From: Bacteroidota bacterium | GTDB lineage: Bacteria; Bacteroidota; Bacteroidia; SXHM01 | Assembly: GCA_947479755.1 (NCBI GenBank) | Contig: CANKAM010000003.1 | Coordinates: 94,001-158,000 of the forward strand | Direction: 5' to 3' | DNA length: 64,000 nt | Shown: positions 3,572-16,973 of the stretch, piece after piece | How the letters are laid out: every line of letters starts with the position of its first letter | Position numbering within the stretch: position 1 is the stretch's first letter | The notes under the pieces: model-generated | What the model was told of the DNA's origin: nothing | Databases searched by the model: none | Seen by the model: only the letters and a program-made list of their open reading frames with translations | Program-made: the position numbers and the translations under genes

Positions 3572-5380
3572 ATGAGCACAGAACTATTAAAAGGCGGAGA
3601 ATTTATAATCAAAGAAACCGATTACAACAACATTTTTGTTGCCGAAGAATGGAATGAGGAACAGCTCATGATTCGCGATATGGTGAAGGATTTCTGTATG
3701 AAAGAAATTCACGGAATGGGAATTGAAAAAGCCGCTTCGTTGGATGCTTCCAAAGATATGGATGTGATTGTAGGCTTGCTCGAAAAATCAGCAGAACTTG
3801 GGCTTTGCGGACTTTCCATTGATGCCGAATATGGAGGAATGGATTTGGATTTCAACACCGGACTTTTGTTTGGTGAAGCTATTGCGTTGGGCTTTTCCTT
3901 TGCCACAACTATTGGCGCACAAACTTCTATCGGCTCGTTGCCTATTGTTTTTTACGGAACAAAAGAACAGAAACAAAAATACCTTCCCGGAATAGCCACA
4001 GCAAAATTAAAAGCATCGTATTGTCTTACCGAACCCACATCGGGCTCTGATGCCAACTCTGCAAAAACAAAAGCTACGCTTTCTGCAGACGGAAAATATT
4101 ATTTGCTTAACGGTCAAAAGATGTGGATTACCAACGGAGGCTTTGCCGATATTTTTATTGTGTTTGCAAAAATTGAAGAAGATGAAAATCTTTCGGCTTT
4201 TATAGTGGAGAAAAATTTTGGCGGCATCCAATTAGGTAAAGAAGAAAAGAAACTGGGTATCAAAGGCTCGTCAACTGTTCAGGTATTTTTTAACGATTGC
4301 AAAGTGCCGGTTGAAAATCTATTGTCGGAACGTGGAGCAGGATTTAAAATTGCGCTGAACATCTTAAATACAGGTAGAATAAAATTGTGTGCAGGTTCAG
4401 TAGGTGGTAGCAAATTTGCAATCGGGCGTGCGGTAGTGTATGCCAATGAGCGCTTCCAGTTCAAAAAGCCAATCAGCGATTTTGGCGCCATGAAATATAA
4501 AATTGGCGAAATGATTATGCGCGCGTTTGCCACCGAATCTGCCGTTTACCGCACAGGAAATAATATAGACCGCAAACAAAAAGAATTTGAAGCGCAGGGC
4601 ATTGAAAAAAGCGAAGCCAAATTAAAAGCCGTTCGCGAATATGCTGTTGAGTGTGCGATTTTAAAAGTGTATGGCTCTGAGGTGTTAGATTATACAGTTG
4701 ATGAAGCTTTGCAAATTCACGGAGGAATGGGTTATGCTGTTGAAACTGGCGTAGAGATGGGTTACCGCGATGCACGCATTACCCGCATTTACGAAGGAAC
4801 AAACGAAATCAACCGTATGTTAGCCATTGCAGAATTGATGAAGCGTTCGTTCCAAAGCAAAGAAATTAATCTTCTGGATGGCGGAAAAAAATTACCCGGT
4901 TTTTTGTTCATGCAAACACTTCCCCTTAAAAGCAAAGCAGGTTTTGACGAAGAAAGAAGAATAGTGCAAGGTTTGAAAAATGCGTTCTTGCTTATTTCCG
5001 GTTCAGCAGGAAATAAATTGAAATTAAAGTTAGTTGATGAGCAGGAAATAATAATGAACATGGCCGATATATTGGCTGAAGCATACATTGCAGAGTCATT
5101 ATTATTGCGCGTTCAAAAACTTTCTGCCAAAAAAGACTTTGATAAAGAACAGTTAGAGGTGATGAAAAAACTGTTGCGCGTTTTCTTATTCGAGGCTTTA
5201 GCAAAAGTGCGCAGAACAGGACAAGAGGCTATTGCAAGCTATGCAACCGGTGCTGAAAAAAGTTTGATGACCCGTTTGCTGAAAATGCTTACGCCAAAAT
5301 TTGATGTAAATCCAAAAGACTTACGCAGAGCGGTTGCTGAGTATGCAATTAAGAAAAACGGATATCCGTTTATCGGGTAA
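3572..5380 (+). CDS. Acyl-CoA dehydrogenase (long, Bacteroidota type)
   Basis: A 602-residue flavoprotein that oxidises acyl-CoA to trans-2-enoyl-CoA in fatty-acid beta-oxidation. N-terminal, middle (CLTEPTSGSDANS, WITNGGFADIF) and C-terminal helical ACAD domains are visible; the catalytic glutamate lies in RIYEGTNEINR. About 170 further residues form the extra C-terminal domain found in the ~600-residue Bacteroidota forms. The first ATG with family-like sequence (MSTELLKGG) is at 3572; a longer in-frame start at 3497 would translate the upstream repeat and is rejected. A near-consensus -7 element (TACTTTCG, 3544-3551) precedes it. No thiolase or hydratase gene is adjacent, so chain-length specificity is open. 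Confidence 0.94.
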   Translation: MSTELLKGGEFIIKETDYNNIFVAEEWNEEQLMIRDMVKDFCMKEIHGMGIEKAASLDASKDMDVIVGLLEKSAELGLCGLSIDAEYGGMDLDFNTGLLFGEAIALGFSFATTIGAQTSIGSLPIVFYGTKEQKQKYLPGIATAKLKASYCLTEPTSGSDANSAKTKATLSADGKYYLLNGQKMWITNGGFADIFIVFAKIEEDENLSAFIVEKNFGGIQLGKEEKKLGIKGSSTVQVFFNDCKVPVENLLSERGAGFKIALNILNTGRIKLCAGSVGGSKFAIGRAVVYANERFQFKKPISDFGAMKYKIGEMIMRAFATESAVYRTGNNIDRKQKEFEAQGIEKSEAKLKAVREYAVECAILKVYGSEVLDYTVDEALQIHGGMGYAVETGVEMGYRDARITRIYEGTNEINRMLAIAELMKRSFQSKEINLLDGGKKLPGFLFMQTLPLKSKAGFDEERRIVQGLKNAFLLISGSAGNKLKLKLVDEQEIIMNMADILAEAYIAESLLLRVQKLSAKKDFDKEQLEVMKKLLRVFLFEALAKVRRTGQEAIASYATGAEKSLMTRLLKMLTPKFDVNPKDLRRAVAEYAIKKNGYPFIG

Positions 5381-5393
5381 ATAACTTAGGGGC

Positions 5394-5804
5394 TTATTTT
5401 ATTTTAAAATAGAGAGAACTCACCATTCTCGGAATACCATCATCCCCTCGCGCCATAATATCTTCCGCTACAAAGATAGCTCCGGGTTTAAGTTTTCTTA
5501 ATGCAGCTATCATCTCATTTGTAAGCGAATTACCTATTGCTGTATAACTCATTAAATCGCCTTGCCCTTTTATTGTAAGTGTATAGGATGATACGCTCAG
5601 GTCGCTGCGATTAATAATAAGGCAACACGATGTTATTGCTTCGCTCACAGTTATATATCCACCTGTTTTTCCTCCCAATGTTACAAACGTAGATTCAAAT
5701 TTCTTTACAGCTTGCTGCCCTTGTTTCACTACCCTGAAGGTATCTGTCTGTTGTGCTTGTGAAGAGCATGAAAACAAAACAAAAAAAAGCAACAGCTTAT
5801 TCAT
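5394..5804 (-). CDS. Small secreted protein with GldM C-terminal-like domain
   Basis: A 136-residue protein with a short N-terminal signal sequence (hydrophobic LLLFFVLFSC then SQAQ). The C-terminal part (LKPGAIFVAEDIMARGDDG followed by IPRMVSSLYFKIK) closely resembles the last domain of the gliding/T9SS protein GldM, but the rest of GldM is absent. Its start overlaps the ridA-like stop by 8 bp on the same strand, so the two are probably cotranscribed. A periplasmic or outer-membrane-side role is inferred from the signal; function is unknown. The GldM-C resemblance is from motif memory, not an alignment. Confidence 0.75.
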   Translation of the reverse strand: MNKLLLFFVLFSCSSQAQQTDTFRVVKQGQQAVKKFESTFVTLGGKTGGYITVSEAITSCCLIINRSDLSVSSYTLTIKGQGDLMSYTAIGNSLTNEMIAALRKLKPGAIFVAEDIMARGDDGIPRMVSSLYFKIK

Positions 5805-6189
5805 TTTGCAAAATTGCTGTTACTTCCATTTCAATCACCAGATCTATGTGAATAAGTGCTTTTACTTCAACCATAGTTGAGGCAGGTTTTATTGCCCTGA
5901 AAAACTCTCCGTGAGCTTTTCCAGCTTCTTCCCACTTTGAAATGTCTGTAACAAACATCCGTGTGCGAACTACATCATTTAAAGTTGCCCCTGCTTCATT
6001 TAAAGCGTGTTCAATTTTCTGAATGATATATTTTGTTTGTTCGTAAGCATTGCCGGGAGCAATTATTTCTTCTCCTTCTGTTGCTGTTGTTCCTGCTACT
6101 TCAATAATGTTTCCAATCCTCACGGCACGACTATAGCCAACAACATTTTCCCACTTTCCTCCTGAAGAAATATTTTTTCTTTTTACCAT
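5797..6189 (-). CDS. RidA family (YjgF/UK114) enamine/imine deaminase-like protein
   Basis: A 130-residue single-domain protein of the size and pattern of the RidA superfamily, trimeric enzymes that hydrolyse reactive enamines/imines made by PLP enzymes. Seen here: GNIIEVAGTTA, the central DVVRTRMFVTDI segment carrying the conserved arginine, and the C-terminal EMEVTAIL with the conserved glutamate. It differs from canonical RidA in several loops, so it may be one of the Rid subgroups without proven deaminase activity. It precedes, and overlaps by 8 bp, the small GldM-C-like gene. Confidence 0.88.
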   Translation of the reverse strand: MVKRKNISSGGKWENVVGYSRAVRIGNIIEVAGTTATEGEEIIAPGNAYEQTKYIIQKIEHALNEAGATLNDVVRTRMFVTDISKWEEAGKAHGEFFRAIKPASTMVEVKALIHIDLVIEMEVTAILQNE

Positions 6190-6198
6190 TTTGGCTAT

Positions 6199-6369
6199 TT
6201 ACTCCCTCTCCTTTGGAGAGGGCTGGGGTGAGGCTTCTTTTATTTCTCTAGCAATGGTTGAAAAATATTCCACCTCTCCCTTCTCATTTTTGTGTGCAAT
6301 AATTACCTGCGAAACAGGAATTTCTTCTAATATAAAGATCTTGAGTTTTTTGTTGCCCATTAGAGCCAT
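6199..6369 (-). CDS. Small hypothetical protein ending in a genomic repeat
   Basis: A roughly 56-residue reading frame (MALMGNKKLKIFILEEIPVS...). The ORF could be opened 27 bp further upstream, but that ATG lies inside the terminator of the preceding gene, so I place the start at 6369 (6360 is also possible). The last ten or so residues (SPQPSPKERE) are encoded by the palindromic repeat at 6202-6236. No family recognised. It may be a real small gene trimmed by repeat insertion, or not translated at all. Confidence 0.35.
   Translation of the reverse strand: MALMGNKKLKIFILEEIPVSQVIIAHKNEKGEVEYFSTIAREIKEASPQPSPKERE
6202..6236. repeat. Palindromic intergenic repeat CCCTCTCC-TTT-GGAGAGGG
   Basis: Perfect 8-bp arms CCCTCTCC/GGAGAGGG around TTT, followed by CTGGGGTGAGG. 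This is a dispersed repeat type that I know from many bacterial genomes, read in frame as SPQPSPKERE. Related GC-rich hairpins occur at 12531 and 28743. Confidence 0.7.
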
Positions 6370-6375
6370 AAAGAT

Positions 6376-6405
6376 AAAAAAAGCCCGCGAATTCATGCGG
6401 GCTTT
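6376..6405 (-). terminator. Rho-independent terminator after the SiaB-like gene
   Basis: On the minus strand AAAGCCCGC and GCGGGCTTT form a 9-bp perfect stem around ATGAATTC, followed by more T residues. It lies 31 bp past the SiaB-like stop codon. The longest reading of the next small ORF starts in its loop, which argues for a downstream start. Confidence 0.85.
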
Positions 6406-6435
6406 CTAATTTAATAACGTTAAAGAAAATAATCT

Positions 6436-7026
6436 CTATGCGGCAGCGCTTGCCGGTATGTTAACTTTAAGTGTGAAATAAGTTTTCTTATCACTTAGTT
6501 TGCGAAAATCATATTCAAATTTGTTGGCTGATTTGCGCGCTATATCAAATAAGCCTATACCCGCCCCGCCTTTATCACTGAACTCCATATTGGACATGAG
6601 CTCTTTGTATTTATCTCTTATTTCGTCTGGCTTCAGATTATTAATATGTTCAAGTTTCTCTTTCAAATAATCGGTTTTGTCATTATTCATCATGTTTCCG
6701 GTGATGATGAAAAAGCTGGTCTCATTTCTGCCAATAAGCAGAATAGACGATTCGTGGTCTTTGCCTTTTTCGGGCTCTGCATGTCGACTTACATTTTGTA
6801 AGCACTCTACCAAAACATTAAAAACCTTTTTCTTTATTTTTTTCTCCTCGTCAAAACCAATCATTTTGGAGTCGACCATAGCAATAAGCTGGTAAGAGGT
6901 TTCTTCGTTGATATTGTCTTTATAGGCAAGCAGCAGCTGGTTTTCAACCATCATGCGCTCAATACCATATATCTGGTCAACAAGTTTAAAGTACTTGTTG
7001 TGTTCAGGGTTATTCTGTGTGGGCAT
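6436..7026 (-). CDS. SiaB-family protein kinase (DUF6272-like)
   Basis: A 196-residue GHKL-type ATPase/kinase related to SiaB, an anti-sigma-factor-like serine kinase that phosphorylates a small SiaC partner. An N-box (VFNVLVECLQNVSRHA, about 88-103) and a G-box (DKGGAGIGLFDIARKS, about 152-167) are clear. In Bacteroidota such genes are usually next to a SiaC-like (DUF1987) phosphoprotein gene or a PP2C phosphatase; neither is present here, so partners must be elsewhere. The gene is monocistronic with its own terminator. Confidence 0.85.
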   Translation of the reverse strand: MPTQNNPEHNKYFKLVDQIYGIERMMVENQLLLAYKDNINEETSYQLIAMVDSKMIGFDEEKKIKKKVFNVLVECLQNVSRHAEPEKGKDHESSILLIGRNETSFFIITGNMMNNDKTDYLKEKLEHINNLKPDEIRDKYKELMSNMEFSDKGGAGIGLFDIARKSANKFEYDFRKLSDKKTYFTLKVNIPASAAA

Positions 7027-7128
7027 ACAGTATAACGATTATGTTAATTCGGGAATAAAACTATCTATAAAATCGATACTTTAACTGAATTCGTCTAAAT
7101 AATGTTTCAACATTTAATTCTGTGCATA

Positions 7129-7779
7129 TCAAAACCCGGGAATGGCATAGAAGAAAACTGCAAAATAATGAAGTATGCTTCCTGCCAGAACAAACAAATG
7201 CCAGATGCTGTGGCTGAAGGGCAAAGTCTTCCATTTGTAGAAGATAAGACCCGACATATAAAACAATCCGCCAAGCGAAATTAAAATCAACCCTCCTGTT
7301 TGTATATGTTCAACAGCCGGACCATAAAAGAAAATAAAAAGCCAGGCCATAAACACATACAGCGAGGTTGAAAACGTTTCAAATCTTCCGGTAAAGAACA
7401 GTTTGAAAATAATTCCGCCCGCTGCCATAGCGCCCATTATTAAAGCAAACATTAATCCTCCGCTGTGTTTCAGGTTCACGAAAAGAAAAGGCATATACGA
7501 GCCAGCTATCAAAACATAAATAGCAGCATGGTCAAACACGCGAAGTTTTAGTTTTACATGTGGCTTGTGAAAACTGTGATAAAGTGTAGAGGCTGTGTAA
7601 AGTACAATCAGTGAACCCCCGAAAATGCTTACTGCAACTAAATGCGAAAACTCATCAAATCCAATGGATTTATAAAGTAATGCAATAAGCCCGATAATAC
7701 TAAGAAACAAGCCCGCGCCATGGGTAAGGCTGTTTACCAGTTCTTCATTTTTCGTTTGCGGATGGTCGTTTAATCTCAT
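7129..7779 (-). CDS. Hemolysin III / PAQR family membrane protein
   Basis: A 216-residue seven-helix membrane protein of the HlyIII/PAQR/YqfA family. Conserved motifs: NSLTHGAG near the N-terminus, STLYHSF, DHAAIYVLIAGSYMPF, and a C-terminal SIWHLFVLAGSILHY, which supply the histidine/aspartate metal site of the family. I start at the ATG at 7779 (MRLNDHPQTKNEE); the longer frame to 7833 runs into the palindromic repeat and gives no family sequence. Proposed roles are membrane-lipid homeostasis or hydrolase activity; hemolysis is not implied. Confidence 0.9.
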   Translation of the reverse strand: MRLNDHPQTKNEELVNSLTHGAGLFLSIIGLIALLYKSIGFDEFSHLVAVSIFGGSLIVLYTASTLYHSFHKPHVKLKLRVFDHAAIYVLIAGSYMPFLFVNLKHSGGLMFALIMGAMAAGGIIFKLFFTGRFETFSTSLYVFMAWLFIFFYGPAVEHIQTGGLILISLGGLFYMSGLIFYKWKTLPFSHSIWHLFVLAGSILHYFAVFFYAIPGF

Positions 7780-7797
7780 GGTAATTATAATTTTAAC

Positions 7798-7873
7798 GTC
7801 ATTGCGAGGGTTTTTCACCCGAAGCAATCTCATAATTTAAGAAGAGATTGCTTCGCTATCGCTCGCAATGACG
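7798..7873. repeat. 76-bp nested inverted repeat (CGTCATTGCGAG element)
   Basis: Outer arms CGTCATTGCGAG (7798-7809) and CTCGCAATGACG (7862-7873) are perfect 12-bp complements; inner arms GAAGCAATCTC (7821-7831) and GAGATTGCTTC (7844-7854) are perfect 11-bp complements. This is a dispersed element common in this lineage. A half copy lies at 26893-26925. It forms the last codons of the upstream oxidoreductase gene. Confidence 0.85.
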
Positions 7874-9486
7874 AACTTTCCTTTTTCAACCTGTTTTCTT
7901 ACTTCATTCACTAATCCCGGATTTTTTAAAACCGCTGACGCGGTTATTAGTCCGGCAAATAAGGCGCCTCCGATACCAACGGTAACAATATCCTGTCCTG
8001 TTAGGAAAAGATTTTTCACAGGAGTGTGTGCTCTTAGGAATTTATGTCTGAAACGGTCAGTAGTATGGTCAATTCCGTAAATCTCACCGCTTGCATACGA
8101 AGTAAAATGTTTAGTAGAAAGGGGAGAAGACAATTCGTAAAAATCAATCTTGCCTTTCAGTTGAGGAACAGTTTTATAAAGTTGTTCCAGCAAACGGTTC
8201 GAGAAATTCTCTTTCAGTTTTTCATATTCATCACCACGTTTTTTCCAACGTGCATCTTCCCAGTCTTTAAACCATTCGTAAGGAGCAAGTGTGATAATTT
8301 CAACCGTTGATTTCCCCGGATAGCGGTTTTCCCAATCAGGGTCTTTGGCAGAAGGGAATGAAATATAAACCACAGGAAATTCTTTGCTCGGGTCAGCAAT
8401 AAAATCCTTTACTGCTTTATCGTGATCGTAATGCGGATAAATCCAATAGTTGGCATTTCCCAGATTAAGATTTTTCCAGCTTTCTTTTATGCCGATGTAA
8501 AGACAAACGTGCGCAACCGATGGCTGCACCAATTTCAATTTTTCACGCATCCCGTGTTTGTCGGCAACCTCATTGTTTACCAGATGTCCGAAAGTGTTTT
8601 CAATCCCTGCGTTGCTGATAATAATAGGAGCAAACAACTCGCTTCCGTCTTCCATTTTCACGCCAACAGCTTTGTTGTCTTTGATAATAATTTCCTGAAC
8701 GCCAGCGTTCACATAAACTTCACCACCCGCGTTTTTTATAATCGGATAAATAGTTTCTGCTATGCGTTGCGCACCGCCAATCGGATAAGCGCCACCATTG
8801 ATATAATGCTTCGCCACCATAGCGTGAATAGCAAAGCTGCTCGATGCAGGCGGCAAGCCGTAATCACCGTATTGTCCTGCAAGTACGCCAATCAACTCTT
8901 TGTTACTGGTAAGGCTTTGAAGAACTTCTAATGTTGTCCTGTCGCTTTGTTTTAAAAATGGTGGCTTGAAAAATAATCCGGCAATGCTCCCCAAAAACGG
9001 GGGCAGAGCCCGCTCGCTGAAAAAATTTGCTGCACTATGTGCGGTTTTGTAAATCAGGTAAACATACTCGTCAATTGCATCTTCCTCGCCCGGAAAATAT
9101 TCCTTCATCTTCCTCAGGAAATTTTCTTTGCCCGTCACGTAATCGTATTGTTTACCGGCAATAACCATTTTGTCATAAACAGCATCCATTTCAGCCCACT
9201 TCAATTCGCCATCGGTAACGTAATTGAAGAGTTGATAAAGAAATGTTTTTTCGCGGTTTACTTCGCCTACATAATGTAAGCCTACATCCCACTCATAATC
9301 TCTGCGTTTGAAAACGTGGGTAAAACCACCTGCCACATAATGCTTCTCCAGCACCAATACTTTTTTCTTCGCTTTTTTTGCAAGAATGGCTGCTGTTCCT
9401 AAACCGCCAAGTCCTGAACCGATTACAATGGCATCGTAGTTTTCGCTTGAATGTTGTTTTTTGTATGAAGGCCAGGTTTTTGACAT
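7837..9486 (-). CDS. FAD-dependent oxidoreductase, carotenoid isomerase/retinol saturase-like
   Basis: A 549-residue flavoprotein of the phytoene desaturase superfamily. The N-terminal FAD-binding motif (VIGSGLGGLGTAAIL, about 21-35) is followed by LEKHYVAGGFTHVFKRR and YEWDVGLHYVG, a pattern closest to CrtISO and all-trans-retinol 13,14-reductase. The C-terminal FAD segment (LFLTGQDIVTVGIGGAL) is present. The substrate may be a carotenoid or another polyene; no carotenoid genes are nearby. The last residues (ASDSEAISS) come from the palindromic repeat at 7798-7873, whose loop holds the stop codon, so the original C-terminus was likely altered. Confidence 0.88.
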   Translation of the reverse strand: MSKTWPSYKKQHSSENYDAIVIGSGLGGLGTAAILAKKAKKKVLVLEKHYVAGGFTHVFKRRDYEWDVGLHYVGEVNREKTFLYQLFNYVTDGELKWAEMDAVYDKMVIAGKQYDYVTGKENFLRKMKEYFPGEEDAIDEYVYLIYKTAHSAANFFSERALPPFLGSIAGLFFKPPFLKQSDRTTLEVLQSLTSNKELIGVLAGQYGDYGLPPASSSFAIHAMVAKHYINGGAYPIGGAQRIAETIYPIIKNAGGEVYVNAGVQEIIIKDNKAVGVKMEDGSELFAPIIISNAGIENTFGHLVNNEVADKHGMREKLKLVQPSVAHVCLYIGIKESWKNLNLGNANYWIYPHYDHDKAVKDFIADPSKEFPVVYISFPSAKDPDWENRYPGKSTVEIITLAPYEWFKDWEDARWKKRGDEYEKLKENFSNRLLEQLYKTVPQLKGKIDFYELSSPLSTKHFTSYASGEIYGIDHTTDRFRHKFLRAHTPVKNLFLTGQDIVTVGIGGALFAGLITASAVLKNPGLVNEVRKQVEKGKFVIASDSEAISS

Positions 9487-9507
9487 AACTGCAAACGTTG
9501 GAGTTTT

Positions 9508-10359
9508 TTAATATCCGTAATCTTTATACCCCTTAGTAAACTCTTCGGGAGCTATCACAGGATTTACCACTAAGTTATGGTACTCATAAGTAGCCATCAA
9601 ACCTTTGGTGTCATAAAGCTCCTGATAAATGGGCAGGTACGTTAGTTTATCAATATAAACAACAATTCTTTTAGCATACGTAATCGGCACTTTTATCACC
9701 TGTCCGGCTTTTACAGATGTAAAATTCTTCAGCCCGTTTATTTCCATCAGATTGTATTCACCCACCTTTTTCTTGCGGGCAATTTTTATTAAATCTTCAC
9801 CGGCAAGCACCGTATAATCAACATATTTGTACTCTTTGTTATCCAGCACAATTTTATAAACATCTCTGCCATCCCATTTTATAATTCCTTCGTTTTTCAT
9901 AAACTCATCGATCTTTGCTTTGTAGCGGTCGTGGGCATCTTTCAATAGTTCGCCCGTATAAACAAAACCAAGTTCGTGAATAGTGTGGTGCTGATCCGTT
10001 CTTAAAATATCTCCGTAGGGGTCAAGGTTAAGATTGATATAAGGAAATGCATTTGGATTTACCAATGCATTGTTATTATTTGTACCGCTGATATATAAAA
10101 CCTCAGCACCGGCATTAGGCTTTGCAATTTTCAGGTAACACTTAAAAGGAGTTGTACTCATTTTCACCTGTTGGTCACCGGGAGCCATTTTCCCGTTTGC
10201 CATCCGCTCATTTTTTACTAATCGGAATTTCAATGTTTTCACATTGGCAATGGAAGCCATCATTTTATCAAATAGTTCGGTGTGTGCAGGCATCGGTTGC
10301 GCCCAAACACTTGAAAAGGCTAAAGAAAATGCAATAAAGAGGAAAATCAGTTTTCTCAT
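9508..10359 (-). CDS. Secreted DUF1571 protein with inserted LysM module
   Basis: A 283-residue exported protein: signal peptide MRKLIFLFIAFSLAF...WAQ, then a DUF1571-like fold (KTLKFRLVKNERM, TPFKCYLKIAKP, later RIVVYIDKLTYLPIYQELYD). Between about residues 178 and 225 there is a LysM-like segment (YTVLAGEDLIKIARKKKVG, then LMEINGLKNF, VKAGQVIKVP), which in other proteins binds peptidoglycan N-acetylglucosamine. This suggests a periplasmic, wall-associated location. It lies between the oxidoreductase and the EEP phosphodiesterase genes on the same strand, with 21-bp gaps, so an operon is likely. Confidence 0.82.
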   Translation of the reverse strand: MRKLIFLFIAFSLAFSSVWAQPMPAHTELFDKMMASIANVKTLKFRLVKNERMANGKMAPGDQQVKMSTTPFKCYLKIAKPNAGAEVLYISGTNNNNALVNPNAFPYINLNLDPYGDILRTDQHHTIHELGFVYTGELLKDAHDRYKAKIDEFMKNEGIIKWDGRDVYKIVLDNKEYKYVDYTVLAGEDLIKIARKKKVGEYNLMEINGLKNFTSVKAGQVIKVPITYAKRIVVYIDKLTYLPIYQELYDTKGLMATYEYHNLVVNPVIAPEEFTKGYKDYGY

Positions 10360-11412: not shown

Positions 11413-12399
11413 TTAAATCACCTTCACCTCATAGCTGATAACCACACCGTTCGGGTTATAGCAGTTTACAAAAGGTTTTTCGCCTCCCAATTGAGCCCAT
11501 GTAAATGTATCCGCATTGGCGTTGGTAACATAAACACCCGAACCGCTGAAACCTTCCAGCTCGCTGTTTGCCGAAAACAACCAGAAGCCCGGACCATCTG
11601 TACAGTCTGCTTTAAAAGCGCTGTCAGTTTCTAAATCCTCTTCTTTAAACAAATTCAACGTGTTTCCGCTGTTAAGAGTTCCTGTTTTTAATAGTCCGCT
11701 TTCGCCCGGTGTACCAACCAACTCAAGCAAATTCACCAATACAAATTGTTTTTTAACCGCAGCATTATTTTTAAAATACGCTACACCATCATCCATCATC
11801 AGGCGCATCTTTTCATAAATCAGATCATTCGCATCGCTTTTGGTTTGTGTGCCTGTTTGCGCGCCTTCTTCTGCCTGCAAAAAAGCTAAGTGTGCAGTAT
11901 CAAAATCATTCTTGATACCCAGAAACTCAGCAGCAAAACCTGCAGGCATATTATCCGGTGTTCCGGTTTCTAAGTTTATGGCAAGCACAGCACTGTTATC
12001 CAATATAAACTGATAAGCATTGCTCATCATCAGCGCAATCATATCCCAGTCACTCTCTCCCCCAAGGTCATACTGGTCTTTCCCGGCAGCTTCCGTTTTA
12101 GGCTTGCGCTCGGCTTTCACGTAAGCCGATACAATATACCGCTCCAGATAATTCCAGTATTCGCGGCATATTCCCGCTTTCACCTTCAGCTGTATGCGCA
12201 GCGTTTCGTGCGCATCATCCCGCGCCTGTTCGTCAGGCAGGTTTTCGGCAGCATCTATTTCTGCCATGCGTGCAGCTATATAAGCAGCGTTGTAAAATCC
12301 TTTGCGTGCTGCAAACACAGCAACATTGTTTAGGCAGTTCTGCCATGCTAAGCGGCACACTGTATAAAGCACCGCCATTGAAAAATTATAGTTACTCAT
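11413..12399 (-). CDS. Conserved hypothetical protein, 328 residues
   Basis: A soluble 328-residue protein without signal peptide or membrane segments. The N-terminal two thirds look helical (VCRLAWQNCLNNVAVF, ARKGFYNAAYIAARMAE), while the C-terminal third is rich in Gly/Asn/Thr/Phe and looks like beta-structure (GFSGSGVYVTNANADTF). I do not recognise the family. It is flanked by a strong terminator and by the repeat-rich region, so it stands alone. Codon use looks normal for the window. Confidence 0.75.
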   Translation of the reverse strand: MSNYNFSMAVLYTVCRLAWQNCLNNVAVFAARKGFYNAAYIAARMAEIDAAENLPDEQARDDAHETLRIQLKVKAGICREYWNYLERYIVSAYVKAERKPKTEAAGKDQYDLGGESDWDMIALMMSNAYQFILDNSAVLAINLETGTPDNMPAGFAAEFLGIKNDFDTAHLAFLQAEEGAQTGTQTKSDANDLIYEKMRLMMDDGVAYFKNNAAVKKQFVLVNLLELVGTPGESGLLKTGTLNSGNTLNLFKEEDLETDSAFKADCTDGPGFWLFSANSELEGFSGSGVYVTNANADTFTWAQLGGEKPFVNCYNPNGVVISYEVKVI

Positions 12400-12530
12400 G
12401 ATTTCTACTTTTTGTGTCAGTCAGCCCCTGACTATGCAGGGCTTTTTGCCTCCCAACGGTTAAACAATTAAATTGAATAGTTAATGTGCGTAGAAATCAT
12501 TTCATATTTTTCTTTTTTGTGCGGTTGCAG

Positions 12531-12575
12531 CTCCCCTCCTTTTTTCAAGGAGGGGTGGTCGCAGACCGGGGTGGT
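12531..12575. repeat. Palindromic repeat CCCCTCCTT-GGAGGGG type
   Basis: CTCCCCTCCTT and AAGGAGGGG form a hairpin followed by TGGTCGCAGACCGGGGTGG. It belongs to the same general class of dispersed GC-rich hairpins as 6202-6236. It is the first of two repeats in the 372-bp gap between 12400 and 12771; the rest of that gap shows no gene. An 87-residue plus-strand frame across it is a translation of repeats. Confidence 0.65.
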
Positions 12576-12597
12576 ATTTGAAGTAGTTTTATTTTCC

Positions 12598-12628
12598 GTC
12601 ATGTTGAACTCGTTTCAGCATCTCAAAC
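12598..12628. repeat. Dispersed repeat CGTCATGTTGAACTCGTTTCAGCATCTC
   Basis: Half of the TGCTGAAACAAGTTCAGCATGACG-type element also seen at 40252-40279. TGAACTCGTTTCAGCAT is a partial palindrome. Single copies of this kind occur in the intergenic spaces of Bacteroidota genomes. Confidence 0.6.
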
Positions 12629-12771: not shown

Positions 12772-13029
12772 TCACAAAATCCTCCTCCTTTTAAACCTCC
12801 CCTTAGTATCAAAGCCATTTTCCACAGCTACCGCTGCCAGCCTAGCAGCATTATTAACTTGCAAAATCTTAAACAAAATTCCCATCTCCGTATTAAGCGT
12901 ACTCTCAGCAATACCAAGCTTTTCAGCTATTTCCTTGCGTTCAAAACCCAAAATCACTAATGCTATTATCTTAGCGTTATGCAGCGTTATGCTTGTTTTT
13001 CCGAATTTCAGATACTCAATTGTTTTCAT
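12772..13029 (-). CDS. LuxR-type HTH-only transcriptional regulator
   Basis: An 85-residue protein consisting almost entirely of a LuxR/FixJ-type four-helix HTH: IIALVILGFERKEIAEKLGI, AESTLNTEMGILFKIL, then QVNNAARLAAVAVENGF. No receiver, PAS or other sensory domain is attached. The C-terminus is strongly basic (KGRFKRRRIL). Such stand-alone HTH proteins usually act as DNA-binding partners or are remnants of larger regulators. It borders the truncated vsr gene and the accessory cassette, transcribed away from them. Confidence 0.82.
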   Translation of the reverse strand: MKTIEYLKFGKTSITLHNAKIIALVILGFERKEIAEKLGIAESTLNTEMGILFKILQVNNAARLAAVAVENGFDTKGRFKRRRIL

Positions 13030-13146
13030 GATGTTTTAAATTTAAAAAGGTTCGTTATTCTGTTTTCTGCACAAAACGGTAAAACCCGTTCTTAATCCGA
13101 TAACGAAAAACAACACAGATTTATTGTGTTAACAAATGTTAAAAAA

Positions 13147-13232
13147 TCATTGTCGTTGGGGCGGGGCTCGCCCCCGCCCATTCCGCCCCCGCCCATCCTG
13201 TCCCTCACCTGTCTCGCCTTTGGCGAGAGCCC
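13147..13232. repeat. GC-rich repeat block upstream of the vsr remnant
   Basis: GGGGCGGGGCTCGCCCCCGCCC forms an imperfect palindrome and is followed by a second CCGCCCCCGCCC copy and by TCGCC-TTT-GGCGA. GC content is far above its surroundings. The upstream part of an 87-residue frame reads through this block and is not considered coding. Confidence 0.55.
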
Positions 13233-13257
13233 TTTCCATTACAAAACATCATACATG

Positions 13258-13265
13258 GTATCTTT
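13258..13265 (+). promoter_or_regulatory. -7 promoter element of the vsr remnant
   Basis: TATCTTTG matches TAnnTTTG and ends 5 bp before the ATG of the truncated vsr gene, implying a nearly leaderless transcript that could also read into the cassette. Confidence 0.55.
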
Positions 13266-13270
13266 GCCCT

Positions 13271-13351
13271 ATGGACATCCACTCCACCCAAACCCGCAGC
13301 TATAATATGGCCCGCATCAAAGGCAAAGACACTAAGCCCGAAATGCTCGTA
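13271..13351 (+). pseudogene. Truncated very-short-patch repair endonuclease (vsr), 5' fragment
   Basis: The first 27 codons (MDIHSTQTRSYNMARIKGKD, then TKPEMLV) match the conserved N-terminus of Vsr-type endonucleases, which nick at T:G mismatches arising from 5-methylcytosine deamination. After the valine codon the frame runs into unrelated AT-rich sequence and stops 15 codons later; the nuclease core is missing. No 3' part was found after the neighbouring two-gene cassette. The gene was evidently cut by deletion or insertion. Its promoter is still intact. Confidence 0.8.
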
Positions 13352-13398
13352 ATAAATAATTTGTTATTGTTTTTAAATAATATCTCATCTTTGGCTTA

Positions 13399-15372
13399 AT
13401 GAGCAGGTATTATTATTCAGATACGATTTCCAACTTCTTATTAGCTACAACAGAGCAAATCTTAGGCTCGTTGTCAGGTAATAGTGAATTTGCAGATGAG
13501 CAAACACAAAAAGAAGCTTGGAAGCTACAAATCAAAATCCTAAAGCAGGTATTAAAGAACTACGAGGGAGAAATCTTCTTTGAATATTCTATTCCAAGAA
13601 TGGGTAAAAGAATTGACGTATTGTTAGTTATTGAACACGTCATTTTTATATTAGAATTTAAAGTTGGAGAGAAAGAATTTACCGGAAGTGCTATTGAACA
13701 AGTATGGGATTATGCGCTCGATCTTAAAAATTTCCACGAGACAAGTCATGAGCATTTAATTGCGCCAATTCTTGTTGCAACAGCAGCAAAAAATATTTTA
13801 CCGTTTGTTTCACTAACACCTCATAGCGATCAAGTATTCTTTCCAATTAAATCAAGTGAAGAAACATTGTCGCAAACAATAAAAAGTGTTCTTGAATATT
13901 CAGAAGGGAAGAAGATAAATACAGACGAGTGGAAAAAGGGGCGTTATTCACCAACGCCAACTATTATTGAAGCTGCAATGGCTTTGTATAATAAGCATTC
14001 AGTCACAGAGATTTCCAGAAGTGATGCGTCAGCAAGAAATTTAAGTCATACAAGTAACGCAGTTTCAGAAGTTATAAAACAAGCTAAAGAAAAAAATCAG
14101 AAAGCAATTTGTTTTGTCACAGGTGTTCCAGGTGCAGGTAAAACTTTAGTGGGTTTAGATGTAGCTACTAAACATTTAGAAAAGGAGGAGGGATTAACAA
14201 GTGTATTTCTTTCAGGTAACGGACCTTTGGTTGCTATTCTTCGTGAAGCATTAACTCGCGATAAAGTAAAACGTGAAAAGGCAAAAAAGAAAAAAGTTAG
14301 AAAGGGCGAAGTAATGAGCCAAGTAAAGTTATTTATTCAGAATGTTCATCATTATCGAGACGCCTATTTAGCTGACCAAACAGCACCATTTGATCATGTT
14401 GCAATCTTTGATGAAGCTCAACGAGCATGGAATTTAACGCAGACAGTTAATTTTATGCAGCGCAAAAAAAATATGCCTAATTTTTCTCAGTCAGAACCTG
14501 AGTTTCTTATTTCGTGTTTAGACAGACATAAAGATTGGGCAGTTGTTGTTTGTTTGGTGGGAGGGGGACAAGAAATTAATACAGGTGAAGCTGGCATAAG
14601 CGAATGGATTGATTCTTTGAATCGTTCATTTCCTGATTGGCATGTTTATGTTTCATCAAAACTTACCGATAGCGAATATGCAGCAGGTGATGCGTTTGTT
14701 GCCTTAGATAAAAGAAGTAATGTTTATAAAAAAGATGATTTACATCTTTCTGTTTCCTTGCGTTCATTCAGAGCAGAGCATCTTTCTTCTTTAGTTAAAA
14801 ATTTGTTAGACCTTAATATTGAGGAGGCAAAGAAAAATTATGAGAAAGTAAAAAGGAAATATCCTATTGTAATAACACGTGACATTTCTAAAGCAAAGGA
14901 ATGGTTGATAGAAAAGGCAAGAGGAAGTGAGCGTTATGGAATAGTAGTTTCTTCACAAGCGCAACGGCTAAAGCCTTATGCAATTGACGTAAAATCTCCA
15001 ATGGATCCTATTCATTGGTTTTTGGATGGAAAGGAGGATGTTCGTTCTTCTTTTTATTTAGAAGATGTTGCAACTGAATTTCACGTTCAAGGTTTAGAAT
15101 TAGATTGGAGTTGTATTGCTTGGGATGCTGATTTTCGCTACTCACCTAAAGGATGGGGATTTTATTCGTTTGTAGGTGATCGATGGAACTTTATTCGCAA
15201 AGAAGAACGTAAGCAATATTTGAAAAATGCCTATCGGGTTCTATTAACTAGAGCAAGACAAGGGATGGTAATTGTTGTACCTCCCGGTGACCTTACTGAT
15301 GCAACTCGTCCGCCCGAGTTCTATGATGCAACCTTTGAATATTTAAAAGAGATTGGTTTCACGGTTTTGTAA
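13399..15372 (+). CDS. RecB-like nuclease fused to Schlafen-group-3/DUF2075 helicase
   Basis: A 657-residue protein. The N-terminal region has a PD-(D/E)XK pattern of the RecB/Cas4 kind: E62, D73 (RIDVLL), E86-F-K88 (ILEFK) and Q101xxxY105. The C-terminal two thirds is the DUF2075 (PF09848) SF1-like helicase domain with Walker A GVPGAGKT (242-249), Walker B IFDEAQ (336-341) and a late LLTRARQGM motif. It probably cuts and unwinds or translocates on nucleic acid. It starts 47 bp after the broken vsr fragment, is AT-richer than its neighbours, and is convergent and abutting with an unknown gene. A role in DNA restriction or phage defence is an inference from domain content and location only. 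Confidence 0.88.
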
Positions 15373-15945
15373 TTATTTGCAAATAATCTTTAAGCACAAT
15401 TTCACTTGGTGCTTTGTAATAGATGATGACTTCAAATCTATTTCAAGTTTTATCTTCTTTAGCAATAGGAGTTGAAGTTTATTTCTTTCCAAGGCTGAAT
15501 AAAATTCGTATTCTCCAGTGTCATTTATAAAGCAATAAACTTTATTCATAAAAGTTTCTCCATTACATAGTTCATTCAAAGCTATTTCTGAATAGAGTAA
15601 TAAATGAATAAAATTGTAGAGTTTATACTTGAAACAACTCTTCTCCTGTTGAGTGTCAATAATTTTAATTTTTTCTTTTGAATTAATGTATTGATTAAAG
15701 GTTTCAATCTTATTCACAAGAACTTCTAAGGCAACATCAGCAAGTATGTTAGGGAATACACTATCAATAAGGAGTAGATTCATTTGCTGTATTTTGCTTT
15801 CAAATTTTTGAAACAGCAATTGAAACTTACTGTGGAACTTTGATAATTCCTTTACTGAATAGCAATCATTAATGCGATAAATGATTGTATAGCTTGCTAA
15901 TGGCATTTCATTTAGGTTTATGAACTCTGGTTTCTGAAAAGGCAT
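15373..15945 (-). CDS. Hypothetical protein of the nuclease-helicase cassette
   Basis: A 190-residue, AT-rich, Lys/Ile/Leu-rich protein with predicted mainly helical structure (LLFQKFESKIQQMNLLLID, FIHLLLYSEIALNEL). No signal peptide, no known catalytic motif; I do not recognise a family. Its stop codon abuts the stop of the nuclease-helicase gene on the opposite strand without a spacer. Base composition matches that gene, which suggests the two arrived together. Confidence 0.65.
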   Translation of the reverse strand: MPFQKPEFINLNEMPLASYTIIYRINDCYSVKELSKFHSKFQLLFQKFESKIQQMNLLLIDSVFPNILADVALEVLVNKIETFNQYINSKEKIKIIDTQQEKSCFKYKLYNFIHLLLYSEIALNELCNGETFMNKVYCFINDTGEYEFYSALERNKLQLLLLKKIKLEIDLKSSSITKHQVKLCLKIICK

Positions 15946-16200
15946 AAATAATTTTGGCTAAAAGTAAAGTGGTCCTTTTAATTACAATTTGCTTTTAAGA
16001 CACGTTACCCACTCGCGCGAGGCTCTTTGCCTCGTGCCCTCTATTCCTTTGCCTCACTTGTCAAGCCTCAGGCCTCCGGCAAATTAATTCCCCCCTGGCA
16101 AAATAATTTCATACTTATTTCCCCTGGAAGAGATTTGCAATCTCCTCCTTTGAGCTAAGGATTTTTAATCCTTTTTAGCCATCAACCCATCCACGCGTGC
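15946..16200. repeat. Composite intergenic repeats after the cassette
   Basis: No convincing gene. The segment contains several short hairpin-forming units: GCGCGAGGC-TCTTT-GCCTCGTGC near 16015-16043, GAGATTTGCAATCTC (16130-16144), and AAGGATTTTTAATCCTTTTT (16157-16176). These resemble dispersed intergenic repeats. The whole 15946-17084 interval (1139 bp) is made up of such elements and the arrays listed next. Confidence 0.5.
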
Positions 16201-16216
16201 ATCGCCTGTGGGCGGC

Positions 16217-16357
16217 TGTCCACGCTGAGTGCGAACCATAAGTTTTGCGGCTGCTAAGCGCAGGCATGTGCGAAAAGCAACTTAGCGAAGCGTTCTCATT
16301 TTAGCTTCTAAAAAACAATTACACTAAATAAAAGCTTATGGTTGGTCAGCGTGGTGC
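16217..16357. repeat. Long imperfect inverted repeat, about 140 bp
   Basis: Left arm CCACGCTGA (16220-16228) plus AACCATAAGTTTT (16234-16246) is complementary to AAAAGCTTATGGTT (16330-16343) plus TCAGCGTGG (16346-16354). The 83-bp interior contains further short complementary stretches. It could be a MITE-like element or a structured RNA; it is not coding. Confidence 0.6.
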
Positions 16358-16400
16358 CTTTTCTTTTGTTACTTTTCTTTGGGCAAGCAAAGAACCGCGT
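16355..16400. repeat. Dispersed repeat TTCTTTTGTTACTTTTCTTTGGGCAAGCAAAGAA
   Basis: Contains TTCTTTGggcaagCAAAGAA, an 7-bp inverted repeat, in the sequence context typical of a Bacteroidota intergenic repeat that I recognise from memory. Confidence 0.5.
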
Positions 16401-16568
16401 AGCGCTCATGAACACCTTAAAAACAAACAACCTGTGAATAAAAGTAAAGCACCTAAGAGCACCTGATTAAAATTGATTAAATACTAAGCAACCCCGCTAC
16501 GCTTACTTTAACCGGCATCCTGCCGCACATTCGCCCTGCTAACAAATTTATAACTAAGCGCAATCTTC

Positions 16569-16648: not shown

Positions 16649-16658
16649 AAAAAAACCT

Positions 16659-16973
16659 TCTCCCTAACCCTTCCCCACCAATCCCTAAACCCCTAACACC
16701 AATCCCTAAACCCTTAGTGACAATTCCGTAAACCATAATGACAATTCCTAAACCCATAATGACAATTCCGTAAACCATAGCATCAATTCCTAAATCGTTT
16801 GCAATCCTTCCTCAAAAGTCCGCAACATATCCTCAAAAGTCAGTGCAGCCTCCTAAACCCTTCCCAACTATTCCTAAACAGTCCAAGCCTATTCCTAAAT
16901 TCTCCAAACCCATTCCTAAACTGTTTTAAACAGTTCCTAAATTGCCAAAAACTGTCCCTAAGTTCTCCCCACA
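16659..16973. repeat. Degenerate tandem array, 15 units of 21 bp
   Basis: Fifteen contiguous 21-bp units can be laid out with no length change (16659, 16680, 16701 ... 16953). Nearly all contain the core TTCCTAAA or TCCCTAAA at the same place; the rest of each unit is variable. Read on the minus strand the unit is a heptad x-L-G-I-x-x-x, but three or more units contain stop codons. No ORF of the right length covers the array, so it is either a decayed repeat-coding region or a non-coding periodic element. Confidence 0.8.

Follow-up and report, generated by a model that had tools for sequence, protein, structure and literature searches.

Probable remains of a vsr-led restriction–modification locus, refilled with a solitary defence gene, in a Bacteroidota genome

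A short island in a Bacteroidota genome is probably the wreck of a type II restriction–modification (RM) locus that was led by vsr and has since been refilled with a solitary defence gene. Within the window, by which we mean the whole 64,000-nucleotide stretch that was analysed, a candidate anti-phage nuclease–helicase gene lies between the first 27 codons of vsr and the C-terminal half of a restriction enzyme of the HpaII family, and close relatives carry other defence genes at the same place. The features of the region are given below by window position and strand.

11413–12399, minus: 328-aa protein, family not recognised and no Pfam match, in the left part of the island
12772–13029, minus: 85-aa GerE/LuxR-type helix–turn–helix (HTH) protein adjoining the vsr stub, also kept in G001, G006 and G003
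13259–13266, plus: −7 box TATCTTTG of the Bacteroidota type, with the ATG of vsr 12 bp further on
13271–13350, plus: 5′ stub of vsr, about 27 codons, catalytic portion missing
13271–13399, plus: 42-codon ORF made up of the vsr stub and 15 foreign codons, its stop overlapping the helicase ATG
13351–13369: junction DNA without a match, within a spacer of 17% GC
13370–15362, plus: incoming module, common to G005 at 83% DNA identity, with nothing beyond it in common
13399–15372, plus: PDC-S41, 657 aa, nuclease-like N-terminus and SLFN group 3 helicase (PADLOC, PF09848)
15373–15945, minus: relic of an HpaII-family restriction enzyme, C-terminal half, 190 aa, 98.6% DNA identity to G006
16658–16937: tandem array of degenerate 21-bp repeats that separates the island from the right-hand conserved gene

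The vsr stub, the helicase and the HpaII relic

The ORF at 13271 aligns through its residues 1–30 with positions 1–30 of the Vsr profile PF03852 (E = 2.3e-6; 27.8 bits, just over the curated cut-off of 27). Weak matches were also obtained with TIGR00632 and with a Vsr model that we built from proteins of the class (model positions 3–31, E = 3e-10). The likeness ends after codon 27 and the complete Vsr fold or catalytic region (about 140 aa) is absent; DNA identity to G001 (95%) and G003 (93%) breaks off at 13350. Neither a PF03852 profile search nor a C-terminal query found a second Vsr piece anywhere in the genome, and since no 3′ part turned up, we discarded plain insertion into vsr. An earlier note, made from the letters of the DNA, had described a clean Vsr N-terminus with its promoter and had left the name to be overturned by a profile search. 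The 27 codons do match Vsr, and the promoter is in place: TATCTTTG fits TAnnTTTG and is the sole exact plus-strand match within 12900–13420. The further statement that the frame is lost exactly where AT-rich DNA begins was half right. Vsr does end there, at a 48-base spacer (13351–13398) of 17% GC, as against 51% for the vsr piece and 40.7% for the window, but the frame stays open for 15 more, non-Vsr codons and reaches its stop at 13397–13399. This stop shares one base with the helicase ATG, in the sequence TAATG (13397–13401).

The helicase gene matches the PADLOC candidate PDC-S41 over its full length (968 bits, residues 1–656 against 1–652 of 657). Its helicase domain is of SLFN group 3 (PF09848, E = 1e-82), and its motifs, a nuclease-like D-x(n)-ExK, the Walker A GVPGAGKT and DEAQ, are intact; a search by sequence found no solved structure for it. 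By candidate assignment in the database, PDC-S41 is an anti-phage gene. Of the 36 ORFs in the window that encode 200 aa or more, the helicase has the lowest GC content (36.0%) and ranks third from the top in codon-usage distance; the ORF behind it has 28% GC. The earlier note had remarked on the unlike composition of the two genes. The match to G005 fixes the bounds of the module at 13370–15362, that is, the PDC-S41 gene and 28 bp of upstream DNA.

The earlier note had taken a nuclease–helicase and an unknown gene for a two-gene low-GC cassette. Its nuclease–helicase survives as PDC-S41, but the second gene can be named: it is the C-terminus of an HpaII-family enzyme. ORF 15373–15945 matches PF09561 (E = 4e-12, profile positions 201–331 of 359) and aligns with residues 199–328 of a 357-aa full-length homologue in locus L193, which is itself complete (profile 1–359). 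A full-length enzyme of this family covers about 359 profile positions, and the 190-aa ORF of the window falls short of this; a TAG breaks its frame upstream of the ATG, at a codon that is open in G006. The missing N-terminal half is where we would expect the catalytic residues, judging from the L193 sequence. Because the same C-terminus lies beside other cargo in G006, we rejected the two-gene incoming cassette: the helicase alone is incoming and the second gene is a relic.

At L193 the order of genes is vsr, an 85-aa ORF (probably the HTH gene), a Dcm-type methyltransferase and the HpaII homologue. The window resembles such a locus in its vsr start and its HpaII-family C-terminus, but it is a relic only, lacking the methyltransferase and the catalytic half of Vsr and, presumably, of the restriction enzyme. 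No cognate DNA methyltransferase lies between 13271 and 17084, an interval whose ORFs comprise the stub, the helicase gene and the C-terminal HpaII piece. Because the start of vsr and the C-terminus of the HpaII-family gene have been kept, both edges of the old RM locus are still visible, and the earlier proposal of an RM locus in which one module was replaced by another is upheld. The two relics face each other in the window, whereas both genes are co-oriented in L193, and because of this opposed orientation they might stem from different RM loci.

Exchange of cargo within the genus

We compared seven genomes of the genus over the region between an endonuclease/exonuclease/phosphatase-like gene on the left (minus-strand ORF, start 11361) and an X-Pro peptidase-like gene on the right (from 17085), both flanks being named from our reading of their sequences. 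The island is absent from this spot in G003, G004 and G005, where the flanks are directly joined. The flanks of G001 and G006 are about 94–97% identical to those of the window, and both genomes have the HTH gene and the vsr start in common with it. In G001 a stop ends the vsr stub after about 55 codons; behind it come a Nudix gene (PADLOC PDC-S07) and the gene for a PLD/DEAD helicase of 1048 aa (PADLOC mREase_IV). In G006 a 17-codon stub precedes a 275-aa PDC-S36 homologue and then the same HpaII relic. Three cargoes are thus found between the same two flanks in the genome of the window (G000), in G001 and in G006. Since close relatives hold other cargo behind vsr stubs of other lengths, we conclude that the spot is an exchange point; the fragment and its followers do not form the stable ancestral unit that the earlier note had thought might be found in all relatives.

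A second spot adjoins an oxidoreductase-like gene. In G003 it contains the HTH gene, a vsr stub, the Nudix gene and the helicase, and in G005 a frameshifted PDC-S41 (the copy with 83% DNA identity); G000, G001, G004 and G006 have ordinary genes there. From G003 and G005 on the one hand and the window and G001 on the other, it follows that both PDC-S41 and the Nudix–helicase pair are found at either spot, depending on the species. No shared site was evident when the junction sequences at the joins were compared.

The window belongs to a 112-contig assembly, and contigs from different strains might have been joined at 13350 and 15372. We find this very hard to credit, as the left part is common to G001, G003 and G006, the right part to G006, and the end of the module is seen independently in G005; with the left, right and module edges each present in relatives, an artefact would take two independent misjoins.

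The closest known system is the minimal mobile element of Neisseria, in which different whole-gene cassettes lie between conserved flanks (Saunders and Snyder, 2002; PMC3898611). The conserved flanks and three different cargoes of G000, G001 and G006 are alike in this respect. The present case differs in that a truncated gene, with a promoter and start codon of its own, contains the left border, the cargo also shifts between two spots, and a border of this kind recurs in distant lineages.

Some further features accompany the island. G003 has a 336-aa protein, 31% identical to the 328-aa protein of the window, in the same place beside its vsr stub, and minus-strand proteins of 326–336 aa lie beside defence cargo at both spots (window 11413–12399; L063 7063–8073; L328 3049–4029); these may be part of the exchange unit. 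The 21-bp repeats (CAATTCCTAAACCC...) lie upstream of the X-Pro peptidase-like gene, and similar arrays are found in G001 and G006. Two intergenic stretches at or near the island edges, 16164–16530 and 12530–12625, recur in many copies in a DNA search of the genome itself and are possibly REP-like elements.

Truncated vsr genes in other lineages

We searched about 400 genomes of the class for vsr genes that retain their start but have lost their 3′ part, and found them in several other families. A PDC-S36 homologue comes next after the stub in G103 (about 38 codons) and G130 (about 42), a Nudix gene, with its helicase in view or not, in G042 (about 60) and G081 (about 42), and an HNH gene in G050 (about 54). 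An independent sample of named loci consisted of the best 80 vsr-start matches over 44 residues, so that its tally of stubs below about 40 codons is too low. Among these best 80 matches, a 104-codon vsr precedes a Nudix gene and helicase in L214 (a record titled Planctomycetota), a 69-codon vsr precedes HNH in Larkinella punicea (L229), a 74-codon vsr precedes an AAA ATPase and HNH in Mucilaginibacter phyllosphaerae, and a 76-codon vsr precedes a methyltransferase in Ilyomonas limi; in L251 a 41-codon vsr lies beside PDC-S41 on the opposite strand. A defence gene is directly behind the truncated vsr in G103, G130, G042, G081, G050, L214 and L229; some of the truncated loci come from one genus and hence are not independent. 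The gap between stub and cargo elsewhere is about 10 to 65 nt, the TAATG overlap being seen in the window only.

Intact vsr genes usually sit beside a cytosine methyltransferase, as the earlier note had stated: among the best 80 matches, a Dcm-type methyltransferase lies within 1.7 kb downstream of 44 of the 68 intact vsr genes and of none of the seven truncated ones (Fisher p = 0.0013). The same loci bear on the idea that vsr and cargo once formed a single operon, in which vsr has since been shortened from its 3′ end. This would account for the Nudix–helicase pair behind stubs of about 42, 53, 60 and 104 codons. It is nevertheless quite improbable, because in the 68 intact loci among the best 80 matches vsr is never directly upstream of PDC-S41, PDC-S36 or Nudix–helicase on the same strand, and no intact vsr is directly upstream beside relatives of the cargo either. 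In the loci matched by the cargo searches, a recognisable vsr stub accompanies PDC-S36 in 3 of 12 class genomes, PDC-S41 in 1 of 15 (the copy in the window) and the helicase in 2 of 36, and on these counts we rejected the view that the cargo always moves with vsr. The cargo families, being found mostly without vsr, are independent modules rather than parts of a vsr operon.

We also weighed codon 27 as a fixed integration site, an idea prompted by G052, where vsr stops at that codon, and by G001 and G003, whose identity to the window is lost precisely at 13350. We gave it up, since it is the window that diverges at this point, and other break points are spread over codons 17 to 104. In G052 the 27-codon stub stands behind a truncated AbiEii, and both promoter and start codon are gone; the truncation is nested (L066, G052:C1, 9852–11179), with an intact AbiEi, an AbiEii of about half length, 27 in-frame vsr codons and then foreign DNA.

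Several loci show other arrangements of vsr. In L093 (G117:C9:87000-99000, 5046–7048) three tandem vsr 5′ copies lie within 1.6 kb and are alike over about −13 to +97 only, a segment holding the promoter box, the start codon and about 32 codons, with different genes after each copy. Lying between the copies are a gene resembling Zeta toxin and another, small gene; only the last copy is intact, with Dcm and a MORC-like ATPase behind it. In G155 (C1:1802883-1804490) the N- and C-terminal parts of vsr are about 1.3 kb apart, apparently through an insertion within the gene. L225 (around 5001–9700) has an intact vsr and, some 1.2 kb downstream and in the same orientation, Nudix–helicase; it may be a transitional form between RM locus and stub-led cargo.

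RM gene insertion with long target duplication has reportedly been described by the Kobayashi group in Helicobacter pylori, and the triple vsr start of G117 is alike. By such a route, cargo would enter at the vsr start with duplication of about 110 bp, and the intact vsr downstream would later be lost. The three 5′ copies of G117, the last running into an intact vsr–Dcm, fit this, as does a decayed vsr copy upstream of an intact one in G173. For the locus studied here we consider it unlikely: vsr is present in a single copy in G000, none lies downstream of the stubs in G001, G006, G103 and G130, and the break points vary from codon 17 to codon 104.

Proposed history and a possible leader role for the vsr start

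We regard the following history, in which an RM relic was refilled by a defence gene and its cargo exchanged among relatives, as well supported. The relics and the intact loci elsewhere suggest that an ancestor had vsr at this place, together with genes for a cytosine methyltransferase and an enzyme of the HpaII family. Nothing remains in the window of vsr past codon 27, of the methyltransferase or of the 5′ half of the restriction gene, and the PDC-S41 module, of about 2.0 kb with its 28 bp of upstream DNA, lies between both relics. The spot is an exchange point, relatives having PDC-S36 or Nudix and the PLD/DEAD helicase behind stubs of other lengths. Beyond this history, and as a hypothesis, the 5′ end of vsr would persist through the promoter box 12 bp before its start, and the cargo would be transcribed from the vsr promoter; in the window, the 42-codon leader ORF overlapping the helicase start would permit its translation to be coupled to that of the helicase. 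The incoming gene would work by itself, its candidate function being that of an anti-phage nuclease–helicase.

The role of the stub as a leader for the cargo is a hypothesis suggested by the position of the box. An exact TAnnTTTG occurs within 30 bp before the vsr ATG in 22 of 91 genes, as against 0–2 of about 90 in eight control windows, and its commonest position in vsr genes is exactly 12 bp ahead of the ATG. The −7 box of Bacteroidota spans −12 to −5 relative to the transcript start (PMC6847099, PMC9723704), and transcripts would therefore start at or next to the vsr ATG. With the box 12 bp before the start codon, a replacement that keeps the promoter must keep the start of vsr. The helicase also has its own imperfect −7 box, CATCTTTG, 13 bp ahead of its ATG and kept in G005, and so may not need the vsr promoter; and because the G052 stub has lost its promoter and start codon, retention of the stub cannot always serve the promoter.

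A more general version is that the vsr start of Bacteroidota is a docking and start module: its box, its ATG and some dozens of codons stay in place, and different solitary defence genes are taken up behind them and expressed through the module. We put this forward tentatively, and think it rather doubtful. There is a real chance, somewhat short of probability, that ordinary turnover of a defence island, by random breakage and replacement, has left the stub as a passive leftover with no role. Decayed vsr genes of no clean pattern do exist (L100, L101, L103), G052 has a promoterless stub, and the bias towards 5′ fragments is just 11 to about 3 (p = 0.057, marginal). Such turnover accounts less readily for the same-strand defence gene that comes next, within about 65 nt, behind most clean stubs, or for the start of all three G117 copies at the promoter box.

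No description of a defence gene led by a truncated vsr was found in the literature covered, which in general did not extend to bioRxiv preprints or to most subscription papers. Turnover of defence cassettes is already known; what is new here is that the beginning of a truncated gene, together with its promoter, forms one border. The genus thus offers a natural experiment on the movement of solitary defence genes, with three defences at one spot in three relatives, two of them found at a second spot as well. If truncated vsr starts mark docking points, they would be sequence tags for finding undescribed anti-phage genes, and, if the docking proposal is true, one dead repair gene would serve as the common leader for many unrelated anti-phage genes.
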